Shown here: in pieces, positions 9,739 to 19,556 of the stretch
How the letters are laid out: every line of letters begins with the position of its first letter
Position numbering within the stretch: the stretch's first letter is position 1
IMG/VR virus record: IMGVR_UViG_3300025127_000235
Span: 1 to 25,808 of that record
Strand: one strand, 5' to 3'
From: a virus
DNA: 25,808 bases
Made by a program: the position numbers and the translations under genes
The notes under the pieces: model-generated
Told to the model about the DNA's origin: nothing
What the model saw: only the letters and a program-made list of their open reading frames with translations
The model's database searches: none

Positions 9739-9824
9739 AAAACTTACCAATCAAATCAACAAGTATTTTATTCGGATTAATCTGCATAGCGGTTTATGCA
9801 TCAATTAACTACGCATGGGTATGA
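9735..9824 (+). CDS. 29-aa membrane mini-peptide in the PTOX unit
   Basis: ATG at 9735 overlaps the previous stop (ATGA). It is preceded by AAGGAGA five bases upstream, one of the best ribosome binding sites in the window. The product MKNLPIKSTSILFGLICIAV plus YASINYAWV has a basic start and a single hydrophobic helix. Its stop TGA overlaps the preferred ATG of PTOX (ATGA). A strong ribosome binding site on a peptide this small suggests either a real membrane peptide next to the oxidase or a leader peptide that couples ribosomes into PTOX translation. Confidence 0.6.
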   Translation: MKNLPIKSTSILFGLICIAVYASINYAWV

Positions 9825-10324
9825 AAAAATTTAACACATGGGTCTTGGATGTAACTATCTACATCCTTGACTTTCTCTACAGAGGTAGAGACTTTCAAAG
9901 ATTCTGGGTTCTAGAAGTTATTGCAAGAGCACCTTACTTTTCATTCATCAGTGTGTTACATTTCCGAGAATCACTAGGATTACGTGGTGAAGAACATATA
10001 TACTTGATGAAGGAACACTTCTATCAGGCACTAAATGAAACAGAACACTTGGAAGAAATGGAGCTTAGAGAAGGTAACAAGTATTGGATTGACCGCTTCT
10101 TTGCCAAACATCTTGTTTTACTTTATTATTGGATTATGGTTGGGTACTATCTTCTTAGTCCTAAGAACGCTTATGACATCAACATGAAGATTGAAAAGCA
10201 TGCCTTTGAGACATACACAAAATATAGTGCATATCATCCCGAAGATACGAAGATAGCTGAGATTGCACAAGATGAATTAAACCACTCTAAAGAGTTGCAG
10301 CAAGCAATGTTAATGATTGCCTAA
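9821..10324 (+). CDS. ptox: Plastoquinol terminal oxidase (PTOX)
   Basis: This 167-aa di-iron oxidase of the AOX/PTOX family transfers electrons from plastoquinol to oxygen at the thylakoid membrane. All six iron ligands can be placed: E32 in LEVIARAPYF, E73 and H76 in NETEHLEEME, E125 in IEKHAFETY, and E152 and H155 in DELNHSKEL. The segment DRFFAKHLVLLYYWIM matches the hydrophobic part of plant and cyanobacterial PTOX. It is short compared with plant PTOX and lacks the insertion before the last ligand pair. In cyanophages PTOX is thought to relieve photosystem II pressure when phage carbon metabolism alters downstream electron use. The ATG at 9821 overlaps the previous stop; an in-frame ATG at 9815 adds two residues. 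Confidence 0.95.
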   Translation: MKKFNTWVLDVTIYILDFLYRGRDFQRFWVLEVIARAPYFSFISVLHFRESLGLRGEEHIYLMKEHFYQALNETEHLEEMELREGNKYWIDRFFAKHLVLLYYWIMVGYYLLSPKNAYDINMKIEKHAFETYTKYSAYHPEDTKIAEIAQDELNHSKELQQAMLMIA

Positions 10325-12293: not shown

Positions 12294-12471
12294 ACTCACT
12301 ACCTTCACCAAAATATGCTAAAGAAATAATTTCATGATCAGGATCGTCATTTTCAATCCATTCTGCAAACTCTTTGTATATTGCATTTTTATCTGCAACA
12401 GGTTTCACTTTTTTTAGTCTTTTAATAGACCATGATCTAGTCTTTACTAGAGTTTGACTCAAAGTTTCCAT
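12283..12471 (-). CDS. Small conserved phage protein (62 aa)
   Basis: The product starts METLSQTLVKTRSWSIKRLK and ends in the acidic DHEIISLAYFGEGSEYDF. Basic first half and acidic second half may give a compact, pH-sensitive fold, but no family is recognised. The start overlaps the end of the GIY-YIG gene by 35 nt in another frame, and an AAAGATT sequence lies just before the ATG. Confidence 0.7.
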   Translation of the reverse strand: METLSQTLVKTRSWSIKRLKKVKPVADKNAIYKEFAEWIENDDPDHEIISLAYFGEGSEYDF

Positions 12472-12898
12472 AATCTTTACGCATATAGCGTCCTAATATA
12501 TTGCTATTATAATACTTTGGTGTCCCGTCGTCAAGAGCCTCTGTTAATACATTGTTTAAAAATAATTGTCTTGTCTCTTCGTAATTTACTTTTCCAAGAG
12601 TTGTATGAAGACTTATGATTTCTCTTCGGAAAGAATCCTTGCCATCTCTTCTAATATCCTGCTTAAGATCCTCAGAGCTTCCGTAGTACTTCTTCCAGTC
12701 TGACTCGCTTGTAACTCTACGCTTTGCTCCTTTGGGTTTTCTCTTCTGCACGAAGTACTTTCTTCCGATGTAGGACTTCTGAGTGGTGATATTGGTGATG
12801 CGATAGACGAACCCATAATAGTCCCCGATATCATCAGAGGTAAAAGGATTGCCTTTGTAAATCCAAGGGTTTTCATAATCAATGTTTTTATCAGTCAT
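12437..12898 (-). CDS. GIY-YIG family protein (T4 SegE-like putative endonuclease)
   Basis: This 153-aa protein has the GIY-YIG core: GFVYRITN (about residues 29-36) corresponds to the GIY strand and KSYIGRKYF (42-50) to the YIG strand with its conserved Arg. ESDWKKYYGSS and FRREIISLH follow, as in T4 SegE-type proteins. Catalysis would be single-strand nicking or double-strand cutting of DNA, with roles ranging from homing to genome maintenance. The gene heads an operon behind a strong sigma-70-like promoter, so it is probably early. The start is unclear because the -10 box lies only 3 bp from the ATG and no ribosome binding site is visible. Confidence 0.8.
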   Translation of the reverse strand: MTDKNIDYENPWIYKGNPFTSDDIGDYYGFVYRITNITTQKSYIGRKYFVQKRKPKGAKRRVTSESDWKKYYGSSEDLKQDIRRDGKDSFRREIISLHTTLGKVNYEETRQLFLNNVLTEALDDGTPKYYNSNILGRYMRKDYGNFESNSSKD

Positions 12899-12930: not shown

Positions 12931-12958
12931 TAAAAAAGAGGGTTATCCACCCTCTTTT
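12931..12958 (-). terminator. Terminator of the primase-nrdAB unit
   Basis: AAAAGAGGGT (12958-12949) and ACCCTCTTTT (12943-12934) form a perfect 10-bp stem with a 5-nt loop. The T-run extends to 12932. The stop codon of the upstream 52-aa gene (12945-12943) sits in its loop and descending stem. The hairpin can also work on the plus strand, but no plus-strand gene is near. Confidence 0.8.
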
Positions 12959-13101
12959 GTCCATTCACATTCTAACCATTCATACGGATCTAAATTTGCT
13001 CCAAACAGTTTCTCGGTGTGTTTTGCGGAATCAAGGTAAGCTTGAATGCTTGCCTCCACTTCATCATAGTTTGAATCCTGAGAATGAATCTTCCTTAACA
13101 T
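12943..13101 (-). CDS. Small protein encoded after nrdB (52 aa)
   Basis: ATG at 13101 and stop TAA at 12943-12945, overlapping the nrdB end by 38 nt in another frame. The product starts MLRKIHSQDSNYDEVEASIQ and ends NLDPYEWLECEWTKEGG. GGAGG lies about 12 bases before the ATG. It is acidic and Trp-rich at its end. I believe similar small genes follow nrdB in other T4-like cyanophages, with unknown function. Its position hints at a link to nucleotide reduction or electron delivery, but nothing in the sequence proves it. Confidence 0.7.
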   Translation of the reverse strand: MLRKIHSQDSNYDEVEASIQAYLDSAKHTEKLFGANLDPYEWLECEWTKEGG

Positions 13102-14194
13102 CTTGTTTAATGCCTCCTACGACGTAACTTTCGACTTCTGTTTCTTGTGGTGCAACTTGCAACCCTTTTGAAGAAATCCAGTGTGTTGTCCAAGGTAAAG
13201 GATTATTACGCATTGATATGTCGTAAATTGGTTTTAATCCCACTGCCCTCATTCTTTTGTTCGCAGTCCACTCAACGTATTGTTGAAGTAGTTTCTCATT
13301 GAGACCAATCATAGAACCATCCTTGAACAAATATTCTGCCCAGTATTTCTCCTGATTGACAGCATTTTCAAATGCCTTTTGGAACCATACTTCCTCCTCT
13401 TTGTAGATTTTTTTCATCTCTGGATCATCACCTTCTCTCCAGTTCTTAAGGATACTTTGTGTGATGACTAGATGTTGGTTTTCGTCTCTGGCGATAAGAG
13501 ACACGATCTTTGCCGATCCTTCCATGAGCTTAAGTTCGCCAAAAGCGAACGAGCATGCGAAGGAGACATAGAACCTAATTCCTTCCAAAATGTTGACATT
13601 CGCAACTGCTCGGAAGAGTTTTCTTTTGAGTTCATACCTTGTGTAATCTGATACGTAAGATCCTCTATGTCCATCTTTCCATAAGTTACCGCTATCATAT
13701 TCATGTGCGTCATTTATGAAATCGTCATATGCTTGAGTAACACTTTGTGCTCTCTCCAGAATGCGATCATCTGTGAGAATAGTGTCAAACATACCAGATG
13801 GATTAGAGTAGACATTCTTTATGATATATGTGTAAGAGCGACTATGGATCATCTCCATAAACTCCCATACTTTCATACATCCTTCCAACTCAGGTAGAGA
13901 ACAGTATGGTGCAAATGCCATACCGGGGCCTCTTCCCTGCACAGAATCTAACATTACCTGATACTTCAAGTTAGAAGTAAAGATATGCTTCTGTTCTGGA
14001 CGAAGTGTTTGATAATCACTTCTGTCCTTTTGGAGAGAGACTTCCTCTGGTCTCCAGAAATATCCTAGTTGTTGAGTGGTTAGTTTTTCAAAAACAGGAT
14101 ACTTATAGTTATCATATCTTTGAACTCCAAGTGGTTGCCCAAAGAACATAGGTTGTTTTTTTGTATCAACAACCTGTGAATTAAATACCGTCAT
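13064..14194 (-). CDS. nrdB: Ribonucleotide reductase class Ia, beta subunit
   Basis: From the ATG at 14194 the protein is 376 aa, the length of E. coli NrdB. It provides the di-iron centre and the tyrosyl radical. Iron ligands are D83, E114, H117, E204, E238 and H241; the radical Tyr is Y121 in IHSRSY. All agree within one residue with E. coli numbering. The C-terminus SGFKL matches the tail that docks on NrdA. An in-frame GTG at 14254 would add 20 residues and overlap nrdA; T4 and E. coli NrdB both begin close to MTVFN, so I prefer 14194. It lies 40 bp after nrdA and supplies dNTPs for phage replication. Confidence 0.95.
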   Translation of the reverse strand: MTVFNSQVVDTKKQPMFFGQPLGVQRYDNYKYPVFEKLTTQQLGYFWRPEEVSLQKDRSDYQTLRPEQKHIFTSNLKYQVMLDSVQGRGPGMAFAPYCSLPELEGCMKVWEFMEMIHSRSYTYIIKNVYSNPSGMFDTILTDDRILERAQSVTQAYDDFINDAHEYDSGNLWKDGHRGSYVSDYTRYELKRKLFRAVANVNILEGIRFYVSFACSFAFGELKLMEGSAKIVSLIARDENQHLVITQSILKNWREGDDPEMKKIYKEEEVWFQKAFENAVNQEKYWAEYLFKDGSMIGLNEKLLQQYVEWTANKRMRAVGLKPIYDISMRNNPLPWTTHWISSKGLQVAPQETEVESYVVGGIKQDVKEDSFSGFKL

Positions 14195-14234
14195 CTCAGT
14201 GACTGGTTTTGATTTTGTTGTTTCCACGTTAGTC

Positions 14235-16532
14235 TTAAATTTTACAAGACTCACAATCTTCTTCCTCCTCGATAAGTATACTAGAAACTAATTCATCAAG
14301 GTTAGGTTTGTCTTCCTCAACCTCATCTGTTTTGATATCATAAGTGTTCTGATAGTAACTAGTCTTCCAACCATACTTGTAGGTGGTAAGAAGATCTTGT
14401 GCCATCACAGAAACTGGTACTTCATTGTCTGGATAGTGTTCTGGGTTGTAACTCCAGTTGCCGGAAATCGCTTGATCAAAGAACTTTTGCATAACTGCAA
14501 CGACGTTGATATAACCCTTATTGGATTCCATATCCCATAAGAGTGTATAATTATTTTTTAAGTATTGATATCCGGGTACTATCTGTTTCAAAGGCCCCTT
14601 TTTCGACTTTTTAATGGACAGGTATCCTCTAGGTGGTTCAATTCCATTTGTGGCATTAGACACAACGGAACTGCTCTCCGATGGCATCTGTGCGGACAAC
14701 GTTGAGTTCCTGACTCCGTATTCCTTGACAAGTACCCTAAGAGAATCCCAATCATATTTTAGGTCATTTGAAACAATTTCATTCACGTCCTGCTTATATG
14801 TATCAATCGGAAGAATTCCATTTCCGTATTTGGTTCTGTCTGAGTATTTACACGCACCCTTTTCTTTTGCAAGGTCAACTGTGGACTTAATTAAGTAATA
14901 CTGAAACGCTTCAGTAAGGTCATGAATCAACTGCCATGCTTCCTTATCCTCATATTTTACACCGTTCTTAGCAAGGTAATGTGCAAGTCCTATGTAACCT
15001 ATACCAAGCGAACGACGGGCCTTTGTGGCGAGTTCTGCTGCTCTGACGGGATAATGTTGGAAATCAATAAGTTCATCAAGACTCCGAACGCTAAGATCGC
15101 ACAGAACTTCGAGATCGGATAGATCACGTATCTTACCGATATTAACAGCACTAAGAATGCAGAGAGCAATTTCACCACTTTCATCATCAATATGTTGGAT
15201 AGGTTTGGTTGGTAATGTGATTTCCTGACATAAGTTACTCATCTCCACCTTGTCAATGAATGATGAATGACTATTACAGTGATCAATATTCATCAAGTAT
15301 AATCTACCAGTTTCTGCTCTTTCTTTCAAGAGGGCAAGTATAAGTTCTTGTGCACCTATAGTAGTCTTAGGAATAGACTCATCATTCTCATACCCTACAT
15401 ACAATTCATCAAAAGACTCTGTGCCGAAACTCTCATAAAGGTTTGGAACATCATGGGGAGAGAAAAGTGTAATCTCTTTATTCTGAATAAACCTTTCATA
15501 AAATATTTTTGATAATTGAATACTATAATCTAACTTACGAACTCGGTTATCTTCTGTACCTTTGTTGTTTTTAAGAACAATTATGTCTTGGATTTCTTGG
15601 TGCCAGATCGGAAAGTGGACAGTCGCTGATCCCCCTCTAATGCCATTTTGAGTACAACATCTGACAGTTGCCTCAAATTTCTTGAGGAACGGTACAACAC
15701 CTGTGTGTTGAACTTCACCACCCCTGATTTTAGCGTTGATCCCACGGATTCGACCTGCGTTGATACCGATGCCAGCCCTTTGTGCGACATAACGACCAAT
15801 GGCCATATCACTACTAAAAATACTATCCAAGGTGTCGTCAGCATCAACCAGAACGCAAGACGCAAATTGCCGAATAGGTGTTCTAACCCCTGCCATGATT
15901 GGTGTTGGGATGTTGAGTTTGTGTTTACTGATTGCGTCATAGTACTTTTTAACGTAGTCTAGTCTGTTTTCTTGTGGATATTTAGAGAATATGGTTGCAG
16001 CGATCAAGAGATACATGAACTGTGGTGATTCATAAACTTGATTACTACTTCTATCTTGAACCAAGTATTTGTCAACAACTTGTCTTAGACCTGCATAGGT
16101 AAACAAATAATCACGATCATGATCAATAAACGATTCTAATTTGGTGAACTCCTCCTCTGTATAGAGATTAAGTATCTCTGGATCATATACACCTTTCTCA
16201 ATACAACTTTTTACATGCGAAAAAACTGTAGGTAAATCATGTAGTCTTTGAAAGACTTGTTTTCTTACAGAGTAAAGTAATAGTCTCGCTGCTACAAATT
16301 GATAGTTTGGACACTCCAAGTCTATCAAGTCGGATGCACTACGAATGAGTATCTCTTGTATCTCTGCGGTGCTTATACCATCATAGAATTGGATTCCTGA
16401 CTGAATCTCTACTTGACTAGCAGAGACTCCTGCAAGACCCTTACATGCCTCTTCACACATGACATGCATCTTTTCAAGGTTAAGAGGTTCAATTGAACCG
16501 TTTCTTTTCTTTACCTTAGTTCCGTTGCTCAT
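14235..16532 (-). CDS. nrdA: Ribonucleotide reductase class Ia, alpha subunit
   Basis: This 765-aa catalytic subunit reduces ribonucleotides to deoxyribonucleotides. An ATP-cone lies at about 5-95. Active-site Cys are C226 in FASCVL, C435 in NLCQEI (thiyl radical site, with E437) and C458 in GEIALC. The radical-path Tyr pair is in SYYQNTYD, and the C-terminal CESCKI carries the redox pair that regenerates the active site. All parts expected of a working enzyme are present. The ATG overlaps the primase stop (ATGA), so primase, nrdA and nrdB form one transcript. Unlike E. coli CESGACKI, the tail pair is spaced CxxC. Confidence 0.97.
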   Translation of the reverse strand: MSNGTKVKKRNGSIEPLNLEKMHVMCEEACKGLAGVSASQVEIQSGIQFYDGISTAEIQEILIRSASDLIDLECPNYQFVAARLLLYSVRKQVFQRLHDLPTVFSHVKSCIEKGVYDPEILNLYTEEEFTKLESFIDHDRDYLFTYAGLRQVVDKYLVQDRSSNQVYESPQFMYLLIAATIFSKYPQENRLDYVKKYYDAISKHKLNIPTPIMAGVRTPIRQFASCVLVDADDTLDSIFSSDMAIGRYVAQRAGIGINAGRIRGINAKIRGGEVQHTGVVPFLKKFEATVRCCTQNGIRGGSATVHFPIWHQEIQDIIVLKNNKGTEDNRVRKLDYSIQLSKIFYERFIQNKEITLFSPHDVPNLYESFGTESFDELYVGYENDESIPKTTIGAQELILALLKERAETGRLYLMNIDHCNSHSSFIDKVEMSNLCQEITLPTKPIQHIDDESGEIALCILSAVNIGKIRDLSDLEVLCDLSVRSLDELIDFQHYPVRAAELATKARRSLGIGYIGLAHYLAKNGVKYEDKEAWQLIHDLTEAFQYYLIKSTVDLAKEKGACKYSDRTKYGNGILPIDTYKQDVNEIVSNDLKYDWDSLRVLVKEYGVRNSTLSAQMPSESSSVVSNATNGIEPPRGYLSIKKSKKGPLKQIVPGYQYLKNNYTLLWDMESNKGYINVVAVMQKFFDQAISGNWSYNPEHYPDNEVPVSVMAQDLLTTYKYGWKTSYYQNTYDIKTDEVEEDKPNLDELVSSILIEEEEDCESCKI

Positions 16533-17500
16533 ACTTTCTTCCAGTTATTGAATTTAATTTTTGCTTTAAGTCCAGAATACACATTTGATTCTAACACGCT
16601 AGACACATCCTGTCCAGCATTTATCATGTCATTCACATCTTTCTCCTTAATAGAGGAAGGCCAAATGACTACCTTATCTCCTCGACTGATGGTTTTGTCG
16701 ATTCGTTTGATGATTTCTCTGTTGCGAGGTTCATTATCAAAAACCCAAATATAATCGCTCCAACCAAACGACCCAATATCAAGATCGGAACCGCACATAG
16801 CAACCGAGTTTTCCACGAAGGTGGAATCGAAAGGGCCTTCCAGAATGTAAATTGGTTTTTTCTTGTCAATTTTATCAAGTCCATAAATTTTGGGAGCGTC
16901 TTCATCAAGCATCACAGTGATATATTTAACATTATTCGGGCCTAGACTTCTGCCTTGAAAACCGATTATGTTTTTATCCTCATCATACAATGGTATAATG
17001 ATTCTACTTTCATCTCTGCCAACATCATGAAACGTATATTTTTTAGTGTTTACCCATTCTCTAAACTTTGCAGCAAAGAAAAAACGAGTAGGGTCTAATC
17101 CCCTTCTCTTAAGGTATTCTTTTGCAATCGGAACCTCCGATGCCCTTGGTATATCTAACTTCTGACTGAATACAGGTTTCTTGAATTCAAACTTTGGTTC
17201 TTCGTAGATAGACCCTTTACCAGTATTACGCTCTTTGAACTTCTCAAAGATATACTGTTTGTAAAGAACAGGGTCTAAAGTTTTAATAAAATTACTAAAT
17301 GTTGAGGAAGTACCACAGTTGTGACATTTAAAGTTCATGTCTGCCTTTACTGGATAGATATATCCTCTTGCCTTGTTCTTATGTTTTTGTGAGTCACCAC
17401 AAACGGGACAACGAAAGTTGTAAAGGTCTGCCTTAACTCTTTTAAACTTTTGTAGTCTTGAGGATACAAGTCCGATATACTTGGAATCAATTATATCCAT
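16529..17500 (-). CDS. 61: DNA primase, T4 gp61 type
   Basis: This 323-aa protein has the T4-like primase layout. An N-terminal zinc ribbon has C31 and C34 (RCPVCGD) and C59 and C62 (KCHNCG). A TOPRIM-type catalytic region shows SRIIIPLYDE, PIYILEGPFDSTFV with its conserved Glu, and VFDNEPRN with the metal-binding Asp. It makes RNA primers for lagging-strand synthesis, together with the gp41-type helicase encoded elsewhere. The start codon overlaps the upstream gene stop (TAATG). It lies upstream of nrdA in the same unit and so is expressed with dNTP supply. Confidence 0.93.
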   Translation of the reverse strand: MDIIDSKYIGLVSSRLQKFKRVKADLYNFRCPVCGDSQKHKNKARGYIYPVKADMNFKCHNCGTSSTFSNFIKTLDPVLYKQYIFEKFKERNTGKGSIYEEPKFEFKKPVFSQKLDIPRASEVPIAKEYLKRRGLDPTRFFFAAKFREWVNTKKYTFHDVGRDESRIIIPLYDEDKNIIGFQGRSLGPNNVKYITVMLDEDAPKIYGLDKIDKKKPIYILEGPFDSTFVENSVAMCGSDLDIGSFGWSDYIWVFDNEPRNREIIKRIDKTISRGDKVVIWPSSIKEKDVNDMINAGQDVSSVLESNVYSGLKAKIKFNNWKKV

Positions 17501-17973
17501 TATTCACCTAAAGTATGCACTACTGGTTTCTCATACAACAAAATCTTATACAACCAATGATCCTCTGCACAAGACACTGGTTTGAATTCTTCCTCTGGAT
17601 TGAATCCTTTATATCTCTTTGCCTGATTGATTACGATTGATCCGCTTTCACCCGATGTAGATCTATGATATGTGTTCTTAGGAATAATTAATGCTCCACT
17701 CTGTACATTTAAGTGTACTATATGATATGGATATTTCCAAGCATTGTTAACTAATTCAAAGGTTCTTTGCCCTGAGACAACTCTATTATAATCATCTTGG
17801 AATTCATGCTTGTAGAATTGTTTTGCCCCCACAGCGTCATCTGGTGGGGATACAGCAGGGCCTGAATGAACTACAAGGTCAGATGCGTTCGATTCTTCAA
17901 CTGATATATCATAAAAAATAACATCTTGCGTTTCACGGAACACACGATGTTTTTTAAATTGAACGTCACTCAT
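17500..17973 (-). CDS. Conserved phage protein, possibly cupin-like (157 aa)
   Basis: The product is a beta-rich protein. A central segment reads VHLNVQSGALIIPKNTYHRS with a following GSIVINQAKR, resembling the paired strands of a cupin barrel (G-x-hydrophobic-P-x-x-x-x-H). H113, and H95 and H98 nearby, could bind metal, but a full cupin motif is not visible. It is the first gene of the primase-nrdAB unit, immediately behind a consensus sigma-70 promoter and an RNA hairpin. I recall similar proteins in T4-like cyanophages. A role in early infection is inferred from position only. Confidence 0.7.
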   Translation of the reverse strand: MSDVQFKKHRVFRETQDVIFYDISVEESNASDLVVHSGPAVSPPDDAVGAKQFYKHEFQDDYNRVVSGQRTFELVNNAWKYPYHIVHLNVQSGALIIPKNTYHRSTSGESGSIVINQAKRYKGFNPEEEFKPVSCAEDHWLYKILLYEKPVVHTLGE

Positions 17974-17974
17974 T

Positions 17975-17994
17975 ACAAAATATTTCTATTTTGT
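17975..17994 (-). promoter_or_regulatory. GAAA-loop hairpin at the start codon of the replication unit
   Basis: On the minus strand ACAAAATA, a GAAA tetraloop and TATTTTGT form a perfect 8-bp stem ending one base before the ATG at 17973. The predicted transcript start from the adjacent promoter is near 17992, so the mRNA would begin with or inside this stem. No Shine-Dalgarno sequence is present. The stem is A/U-rich and also contains the upstream gene's stop codon. Confidence 0.55.
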
Positions 17995-18372
17995 CTGTAT
18001 TATACCTGATTGTGGTGGTGCTGTCAACGCACTTCTTAAAAATCTTTGTCCTATTGGTGATACTACGAAACTTATGATAGTTAAAGAACCTGCGATTGTC
18101 CACATCTTCTTCTCTATTGTTCTTAGACGATTATCTACAAGCATTATATCTCTCTCACATCCTTTCTTGATATCTGTTGCATGACGATCTAATTTCTGAT
18201 CTACTTGTTCAATCTTTTCAAATAATACTGCATCTATACGATCTTGTTTATCTAACTTCTCATTATGAACCGCAAGAAGTTCACCCATCTTCACAGAGTT
18301 TTCCTGTAAAGACTGAACTACTTTCTCAAGTCTTTCTAATATCGCTGCATTAACACTTTTGTTGTCATCCAT
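17986..18372 (-). CDS. Coiled-coil protein with C-terminal membrane helix (128 aa)
   Basis: Residues 1-90 form a long helical, coiled-coil-like region with hydrophobic heptads (ILERLEKVVQSLQENSVKMG, FEKIEQVDQKLDRHATDIKK). A membrane helix follows (MWTIAGSLTIISFVVSPIG, about 90-108) and a short tail. The layout resembles XhlA-type membrane-anchored lysis accessory proteins, which is only a topology match. The gene overlaps the next upstream one by 8 nt. Its last codons (SALTAPPQSGIIQTK) also contain a perfect sigma-70 promoter for the following unit, so this DNA serves two functions. Confidence 0.75.
   Translation of the reverse strand: MDDNKSVNAAILERLEKVVQSLQENSVKMGELLAVHNEKLDKQDRIDAVLFEKIEQVDQKLDRHATDIKKGCERDIMLVDNRLRTIEKKMWTIAGSLTIISFVVSPIGQRFLRSALTAPPQSGIIQTK
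17999..18027 (-). promoter_or_regulatory. Perfect-consensus sigma-70 promoter for the primase-nrdAB unit
   Basis: Reading leftward: TTGACA (18027-18022), a 17-bp spacer and TATAAT (18004-17999), all twelve bases as in the consensus. It lies inside the 3' end of the coiled-coil membrane gene and about 26 bp before the ATG at 17973. The expected start is close to 17992. Confidence 0.85.
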
Positions 18373-18556
18373 TTTTCTTATTTGCTAACCACATCTTTCG
18401 TGATCCATGTCCACCATAGATATATTTCTTTTTCTTTTTCTTCATAGGAGGATCATCTCCTGCTTCAATGGTACCAGCAATCTTGCCACCACCCACGTTA
18501 TTTGTAGGTACAGCAGCGACTGTCTCTTCAGACATAAATTGCTTAAAAGTTTTCAT
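18365..18556 (-). CDS. Small basic protein with capsid-targeting-like N-terminus (63 aa)
   Basis: The ATG at 18556 overlaps the previous stop (ATGA), so I chose it over an ATG at 18580. The product starts MKTFKQFMSEETVAAVPTNN, passes a Gly-rich and acidic stretch, then a run of six Lys (MKKKKKKYIYGG) and a basic tail. The first ten residues resemble the capsid-targeting sequence of T4 internal proteins (IPIII starts MKTYQEFIAE), which ends at a prohead-protease site of the (L/I)xE type. FMSE fits loosely. It may be a small DNA-binding protein packaged in the head. No family recognised beyond this. Confidence 0.65.
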   Translation of the reverse strand: MKTFKQFMSEETVAAVPTNNVGGGKIAGTIEAGDDPPMKKKKKKYIYGGHGSRKMWLANKKNG

Positions 18557-18924
18557 ATTGATCCAAGTTCTGATATGCAATAATCATCTTGTGGTATACC
18601 ATGTACATGCGATTTAGGGTATTCCGGTATTCTTCTTAAGAAGATAAGGAAACTTTTGACCGCAGGCCATAGGTCTTCTTCTAAATTATAAAACAAAAGG
18701 GGTGTTGCTGCGTCATCAAAAACATTGAACAATACTGTTAAGTGGTTCAATATCAAATGAGTCTTCAGTACCCCAGTGTTTTTATATCTTTTGAGAAGTC
18801 TTTTTACATATTTGATTCGCTTTAAATCATCCTCAAAGTCATCTTTGGTAAGTGCATGTGGATTGTTGTAAAATTTTATAGCAAATAACAAATAGTTATC
18901 TTCATTCAATTCATCAAATCTCAT
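18553..18924 (-). CDS. Conserved cyanophage protein, helical (123 aa)
   Basis: The product is mainly helical: MRFDELNEDNYLLFAIKFYN, then DFEDDLKRIKYVKRLLKRYK, then LKTHLILNHLTVLFNVFDDA, and LWPAVKSFLIFLRRIPEYPK. There are no clear catalytic motifs. I am confident that T4-like cyanophages carry close relatives of this length, but I know no experimentally proven function. A CATAAATA motif lies 21 bp before its ATG. It overlaps the small basic protein gene by 4 nt. Confidence 0.8.
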   Translation of the reverse strand: MRFDELNEDNYLLFAIKFYNNPHALTKDDFEDDLKRIKYVKRLLKRYKNTGVLKTHLILNHLTVLFNVFDDAATPLLFYNLEEDLWPAVKSFLIFLRRIPEYPKSHVHGIPQDDYCISELGSI

Positions 18925-18944: not shown

Positions 18945-18952
18945 TATTTATG
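18945..18952 (-). promoter_or_regulatory. Putative late promoter (CATAAATA)
   Basis: CATAAATA reads leftward 21 bp before the ATG at 18924 and overlaps the end of the SWM-repeat-like gene. It differs from TATAAATA at one base. Confidence 0.5.
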
Positions 18953-19520
18953 CAGCAACAGTCAATGTTCCAGCAGCAGTTCCGATTGCAACTGAACTAG
19001 TAATTGTAGCATTGGTGTTTGTACCTTCATCCTTTATAGTTCCACCATTTAATGAAACTGGGTTGGCAACAACCTTTAGAACATCATTTGCGTTTGTTGC
19101 AGCATTGTTAGCAGCAATTACCTTTCTGAATGTAAGTTCGTTTGTACCTGATCCAGACAAGTAATCACATGTGATGTTTCTTGAAGATGATGTATTGTTA
19201 GTTACTAAGAACTGTGGAGTACCTGTTACAGTAACTGCCTCGTTAAATCTAACTAACATATCAATGTTACCACCATCTGACTTATCAAACGCTGTAGATT
19301 TAAACTCTACATCTGTGATGTCAGCAGCACCTAGACTTGTTGTTAGATCACCAATTGCAACCAGAACCTCTGGTGTTGCACTTGTATTATCGTTTCCACT
19401 GAAAGCAGAACCAGCTTCTAGAACCCATCCACTTGTATTAGCGAACACGAGTTTCTTCTCCGCGTCGGTCAGAAACTTGGGTTTTGACTCGTCTGCGTCA
19501 GTTGCTCCCCATGAAGACAT
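18948..19520 (-). CDS. Virion-type protein with SWM/Ig-like repeat domain (190 aa)
   Basis: An N-terminal stretch (MSSWGATDADESKPKFLTDA) leads into a beta-rich domain. The part ADITDVEFKSTAFDKSDGGN, then MLVRFNEAVTVTGTPQFLVT, resembles the Ig-like repeats of cyanobacterial surface proteins such as SwmB. The C-terminus is Ala/Thr/Val-rich and ends AAGTLTVAA. The protein is probably displayed on the virion. It is expressed from a perfect TATAAATA promoter 28 bp upstream, in keeping with a structural role. I cannot place it in a specific virion part. Confidence 0.8.
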   Translation of the reverse strand: MSSWGATDADESKPKFLTDAEKKLVFANTSGWVLEAGSAFSGNDNTSATPEVLVAIGDLTTSLGAADITDVEFKSTAFDKSDGGNIDMLVRFNEAVTVTGTPQFLVTNNTSSSRNITCDYLSGSGTNELTFRKVIAANNAATNANDVLKVVANPVSLNGGTIKDEGTNTNATITSSVAIGTAAGTLTVAA

Positions 19521-19548: not shown

Positions 19549-19556
19549 TATTTATA
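19549..19556 (-). promoter_or_regulatory. T4-type late promoter (perfect TATAAATA)
   Basis: TATAAATA reads leftward 28 bp before the ATG at 19520, in the 49-bp gap upstream. A second AT-rich stretch (CTATAAAG) lies 6-13 bp nearer the gene. Confidence 0.65.

Follow-up and report, generated by a model that had tools for sequence, protein, structure and literature searches.

A predicted SigA-type promoter inside the end of a DUF7201 gene, ahead of the primase-nrdA-nrdB unit of a T4-like cyanophage

Promoters resembling those of the host have been described in cyanophages before. Among the closest known cases are the sigma-70 promoters predicted from sequence in the same phage group by Sullivan et al. 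(2010; PMC3037559), whose survey, in the passage that defines its filter, retained only sites in intergenic DNA or no more than 10 bp from the ends of open reading frames (ORFs). Also close are the host-like (sigma-70/SigA) promoters of Syn9 and P-TIM40, which have consensus-like -35 and -10 elements 17 bp apart and stand ahead of DNA-synthesis genes (before primase both read TTGACA-17-TATGAT). Here we describe a related site in a stretch of viral DNA of 25,808 nucleotides (IMG/VR record IMGVR_UViG_3300025127_000235, positions 1 to 25,808; 'the window' means this whole stretch), which is, to judge from its genes and nearest relatives (S-SKS1, P-HM1 and P-SSM4, with DNA identity of about 73%), a fragment of a T4-like cyanophage. 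The site differs from those of Syn9 and P-TIM40 in being an exact 12/12 match, in lying wholly inside the upstream gene and in having a cupin-like gene between it and primase. As it lies 13-42 nt inside the end of that gene, the filter as worded by Sullivan et al. would drop it. The kind of element is thus already known; the new detail is its intragenic location and the accompanying constraint on codons. The features concerned are as follows.

17999..18027, minus strand: predicted promoter of sigma-70 (SigA) type, with -35 at 18027-18022, a 17-bp spacer and -10 at 18004-17999
17986..18372, minus strand: DUF7201 coiled-coil gene (PHROG 451, N-terminal part), whose last codons house the promoter
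17500..17973, minus strand: first gene of the unit, for a PHROG 9052 protein that is weakly cupin-like (Pfam ARD E 0.0024, below cut-off)
16529..17500, minus strand: gp61-like DNA primase
14235..16532, minus strand: nrdA, ribonucleotide reductase large subunit
13064..14254, minus strand: nrdB, ribonucleotide reductase small subunit
12943..13101, minus strand: ORF of 52 aa without a family match
12931..12958, minus strand: intrinsic terminator hairpin (10-bp stem, 5-nt loop, T-rich tail), closing the unit

The site, TTGACAGCACCACCACAATCAGGTATAAT, is TTGACA-17-TATAAT, its 17-bp spacer falling within the 16-18 bp usual for SigA promoters. The DUF7201 frame runs through it as TTG ACA (Leu-Thr) ... 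Gly-Ile-Ile and stops at TAG (17988-17986), so that the gene ends 13 nt past the -10. A perfect promoter within the last codons of a coiled-coil gene was what the sequence-only reading had noticed, and the gene order that it gave behind the promoter (cupin-like, primase, nrdA, nrdB, 52-aa gene) likewise matches the coordinates. Function as a promoter seems very likely. We infer the actual RNA start, the sigma factor and the timing: the start is predicted near 17992, which would leave about 19 nt of leader before the start codon (ATG at 17973).

We think it probable that this is an intragenic promoter of SigA type for the host RNA polymerase, situated at a conserved boundary between late and middle genes and likely used in the middle phase of infection. 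Host polymerase carrying the cyanobacterial primary sigma factor would read the site, begin near 17992 and produce one transcript of about 5 kb, covering the cupin-like gene, primase, nrdA, nrdB and the 52-aa ORF, before stopping at the hairpin (12958-12931). The promoter would mark where a run of late genes, with ATAAATA promoters of the T4 type, gives way to a DNA-synthesis unit, and selection on it would fix codon choice, and probably some residues too, in the tail of the DUF7201 protein.

Evidence for this comes from relatives. Three protein queries confirmed 484 loci (DUF7201), 255 (cupin-like) and 482 (primase), and the 80 best of each were used; the rows are related, and counts are therefore not independent. 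Among 101 distinct DUF7201 gene ends, 49 have a 12/12 site and 30 an 11/12 site. When the best site was sought in 95 distinct gene ends that include the stop codon, a search that sometimes chose a different site, the scores were 12 in 45, 11 in 31, 10 in 16 and 9 in three, the site mostly starting 42 nt ahead of the end of the stop codon. Changes were then counted by parsimony on a primase tree of 96 rows; the per-site counts use the 73 with Leu at the -35 codon, and the remaining 23 were scored separately. At the fixed position, 40 of the 73 tails score 12/12, 27 score 11 and six score 10. Changes per base average 1.17 for the hexamers, 12.2 for the spacer and 18.1 for third codon positions upstream. 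TTGAC and four of the six -10 bases show no change at all; the sixth -35 base, mostly A or T, is less constrained (11 changes). The location of the site is constant, and the 17-bp spacing is held while spacer and flanks change freely, as would be looked for in a SigA promoter whose hexamers are under selection.

A related element extends well beyond these relatives. In all 20 named cyanophages whose primase region was compared, the best element lies 18-29 nt ahead of the primase start, scoring 11/12 in 11, 10/12 in eight, 9/12 in one and 12/12 in none (perfect matches were found among the window's nearer relatives). Because the scan chose among three spacings along some 175 nt, a single score of 10/12 means little there, and it is the shared position that constitutes evidence. 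On this evidence the promoter-primase arrangement is old in the group, and the order primase-nrdA-nrdB is the same in 20 of 20; the earlier idea that the unit had been 'dropped into' a run of late genes does not fit these comparisons. The pattern TTGACW-17-TATAAT occurs at 137 sites in the 20 genomes (1-19 in each), compared with six for the reversed pattern, and only four of the 137 are on the minority strand of their genome. A survey of all consensus sites in seven of the 20, using mechanically called ORFs of at least 60 aa, placed 10 of 60 wholly inside a same-strand ORF and 18 across an ORF end, leaving 32 intergenic-like; three of the 10 wholly embedded sites are the primase promoter itself (P-SSM2, S-SKS1 and SynMITS9220M01). 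An embedded promoter in these compact genomes is thus, on sequence grounds, not the rule but not rare. A literature search restricted to titles found none on an intragenic primase promoter in cyanophages.

The other side of the proposed boundary is marked by motifs of the T4 late type (TATAAATA), two of which lie just above the coiled-coil gene.

18945..18951, minus strand: ATAAATA, 21 nt ahead of gene 18553-18924
19549..19555, minus strand: ATAAATA, 29 nt ahead of gene 18948-19520

The minus strand of the window has nine ATAAATA sites, eight of them 19-31 nt ahead of a gene start, a position in which the genes above the unit resemble genes with T4 late promoters; taken over both strands the motif is not in excess (10 found, 9.04 expected from shuffles). 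It was not found on the minus strand between 18945 and 8835, a stretch that has CTAAATA at 15985, 12193 and 11784. In the relatives, all 27 distinct regions upstream of gene 18948-19520 have ATAAATA, as do 8 of 96 for the next gene and 20 of 75 for the DUF7201 gene, which bears out the description of the genes above the promoter as late-type. The likeness to T4 late promoters ends there, as the motif stands just before none of the cupin (0/79), primase (0/102) and nrdA (0/81) genes examined. A late element overlapping the promoter site was considered and rejected on the same 0/102 primase upstream regions.

Several observations weigh against the proposed promoter or its timing. Of the 23 tree rows (out of 96) without Leu at the -35 codon, seven keep an 11-12/12 site at a shifted place and 12 score 10, while three score only 9 (TTGCAA or TTGTTT) and one (L046) is without an in-frame TTG site. 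The site of P-HM2 is weaker (10/12, TAGTAT), and in a search of this kind a chance 10/12 is no rarity. In the literature, a passage of one review places Syn9 nrdA and nrdB under early-infection co-expression (PMC6359870), and in a section of another (PMC2984593) early genes of S-PM2 and Syn9 are linked with sigma-70 motifs.

These last points bear on whether the promoter might be an early one, used at once upon phage entry by unmodified host polymerase, as the sequence-only reading had supposed. We regard this as unlikely, though it has something to commend it: a consensus site requires no phage factor, and, according to the same section of PMC2984593, cyanomyoviruses are without alt, modA and modB and the early T4-gene homologues of S-PM2 and Syn9 have sigma-70-like motifs. 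Against it, the transcriptome of P-HM2, in the part that deals with gene classes, puts nrdA and nrdB in the middle cluster and auxiliary genes exclusively there, with 95% of the genes common to P-SSM2 keeping their class (PMC5082946), and nucleic-acid metabolism genes of cultured cyanomyoviruses are called middle genes in a passage of a field study (PMC7238727). The P-HM2 classes come from a phage whose site is weaker than the window's. The window's promoter precedes genes for DNA replication and nucleotide metabolism on its own strand, as would befit a host-like middle promoter. In Syn9, as Doron and colleagues reportedly found in 2016, host-like promoters are on middle genes and early genes have a separate element. 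On balance, a middle rather than an early primase-nrdA-nrdB unit is more likely, but not proven, and the label 'early' is not supported.

A candidate for an early element, TTGACTANATA-12-TATNAT, occurs at 12 sites in nine of the 20 genomes (control 0). No early motif stood out clearly in k-mer counts over all of Syn9 and 212 of the 252 kb of P-SSM2; CTAAATA was strand-biased in both (23 vs 2 and 21 vs 5, respectively), and several of its sites, by eye, are shortly ahead of a possible start codon, like a late-motif variant. With this resemblance, and with no clear early k-mer, an early element is not established. A combination seen in several genomes (Syn9 159895, P-SSM2 245119, S-SKS1 197488) is TTGACTAAATA, in which a sigma-70 -35 overlaps the CTAAATA variant; TTGACTAAATA would be in keeping with the overlap of early and late promoters that a passage of PMC2984593 describes as proposed for middle genes of RB49 and S-PM2.

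Could the conservation instead belong to the protein, Leu-Thr...Ser-Ile-Ile being a needed C-terminal motif of DUF7201 and the promoter match a by-product? The residues do recur, and the site is in one constant frame in 97 of 97 tails scoring at least 10. Codon choice, however, is fixed far past what the protein needs. One earlier set of tails had been filtered on TTGAC, which makes its -35 figures partly a matter of construction, and the tests were therefore repeated with a filter on amino acids only: all 77 distinct tails with Leu at this codon write it TTG (background 12.5%), and ATA encodes the first Ile in 79 of 86 (background 34%). Synonymous redraws from background usage with the protein held fixed reach 11 or 12 matches in 8.3% of draws (all 12 in 0.6%), compared with the 79 of 101 gene ends at 11 or 12 in nature, and the 17-bp spacing is kept despite variable spacer residues. 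We consider conservation of the protein alone very improbable and reject it on these departures from background usage. Free variation of the hexamer bases at synonymous sites in relatives, which had been named in advance as grounds for abandoning the promoter, is not what the TTG codons and the tree counts (1.17 against 12.2) reveal, and the suggestion that this sequence answers to both protein and promoter is upheld by selection beyond codon constraint.

Hexamer conservation by itself cannot identify the protein that binds, and the site might conceivably be one for a phage factor that merely resembles a sigma-70 promoter. This too we think very improbable: conservation is mainly at the -35 and -10 with their fixed 17-bp spacing, the tree alignment of the relatives holds no additional conserved block upstream of the -35, and cyanomyoviruses are described in the relevant section of PMC2984593 as being without motA and asi. 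Chance in an AT-rich window, to which the weaker promoter scan might lend some colour (50 sites against 51.6 expected, a result uninformative alone and too weak for judging single sites), can safely be rejected, as the exact 12/12 site is the scan's and the window's only one (0.06 expected; six of 100 shuffles gave at least one) and recurs at a fixed position in relatives.

The promoter of SigA type thus remains our preferred explanation, and what follows it is less constant than the promoter itself. Of the 96 tree rows, 34 (the window included) have the cupin-like gene between promoter and primase, and 62 have primase directly behind the promoter. To account for this pattern the primase tree needs no fewer than 13 changes, some of which may reflect recombination. 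The mobile part would on this evidence be the cupin-like gene, the first gene turning over behind a fixed promoter. A broader picture, in which the promoter and not protein function writes the DUF7201 tail, the core promoter being anchored in the late-gene end throughout the T4-like cyanophages, and a slot behind it repeatedly gains and loses its first gene, is offered tentatively, at rather less than even confidence. PHROG 9052, to which the cupin-like protein belongs, is labelled hemagglutinin in that database. At the primase start of relatives (e.g. L030 and L048), ATATCC shortly ahead of ATGGATAT forms an inverted repeat around the start codon, seen in 21 of the 57 distinct starts that lack the cupin gene and in 0 of the 31 that have it; it is perhaps concerned with translational control.

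At its other end the unit closes as had been claimed, with a strong terminator: stem 12958-12949/12943-12934, then TTA, with a fold of -18.1 kcal/mol (z -4.2). A simple terminator scanner missed this hairpin, probably as the stem uses up the T run. That scanner gave no terminator-like site on the minus strand that would part the late genes from the unit within about 1 kb, and read-through from the late genes may therefore contribute to expression of the unit as well. The description of the unit as 'self-contained' is accordingly only partly apt.

The hairpin is also the first part of a compact cassette (12958-12896, minus strand), which continues with TTGACT-17-TATAAT and the start codon (ATG) of a gene for a SegE-like GIY-YIG protein. 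Of the 41 listed regions upstream of this gene, 11 have the cassette in near-identical form letter by letter, spacer included; so invariant a spacer hints at an operator or at a module that is portable, and the -10, ending 3 nt ahead of the ATG, suggests a leaderless mRNA. The gene itself (12437-12898) has the PHROG 447 label NAD synthetase, yet matches Pfam SegE_GIY-YIG with E 9e-55, and the label, which several phage records carry, looks wrong. On the plus strand, opposite the primase unit, 9815-10324 is a gene for plastoquinol terminal oxidase (PHROG 4235), an auxiliary photosynthesis gene.

The locus provides a clean natural case of a promoter overriding codon choice within a gene, and it is conserved well enough to serve as a landmark for the boundary between late and middle genes in T4-like cyanophages. 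Such sites escape surveys confined to intergenic DNA, 28 of the 60 in the seven genomes being within or overlapping an upstream ORF. If the slot behind the promoter does exchange its first gene, each newcomer would come under the control of that promoter. The finding also bears on the timing of ribonucleotide reductase, which feeds phage DNA synthesis.
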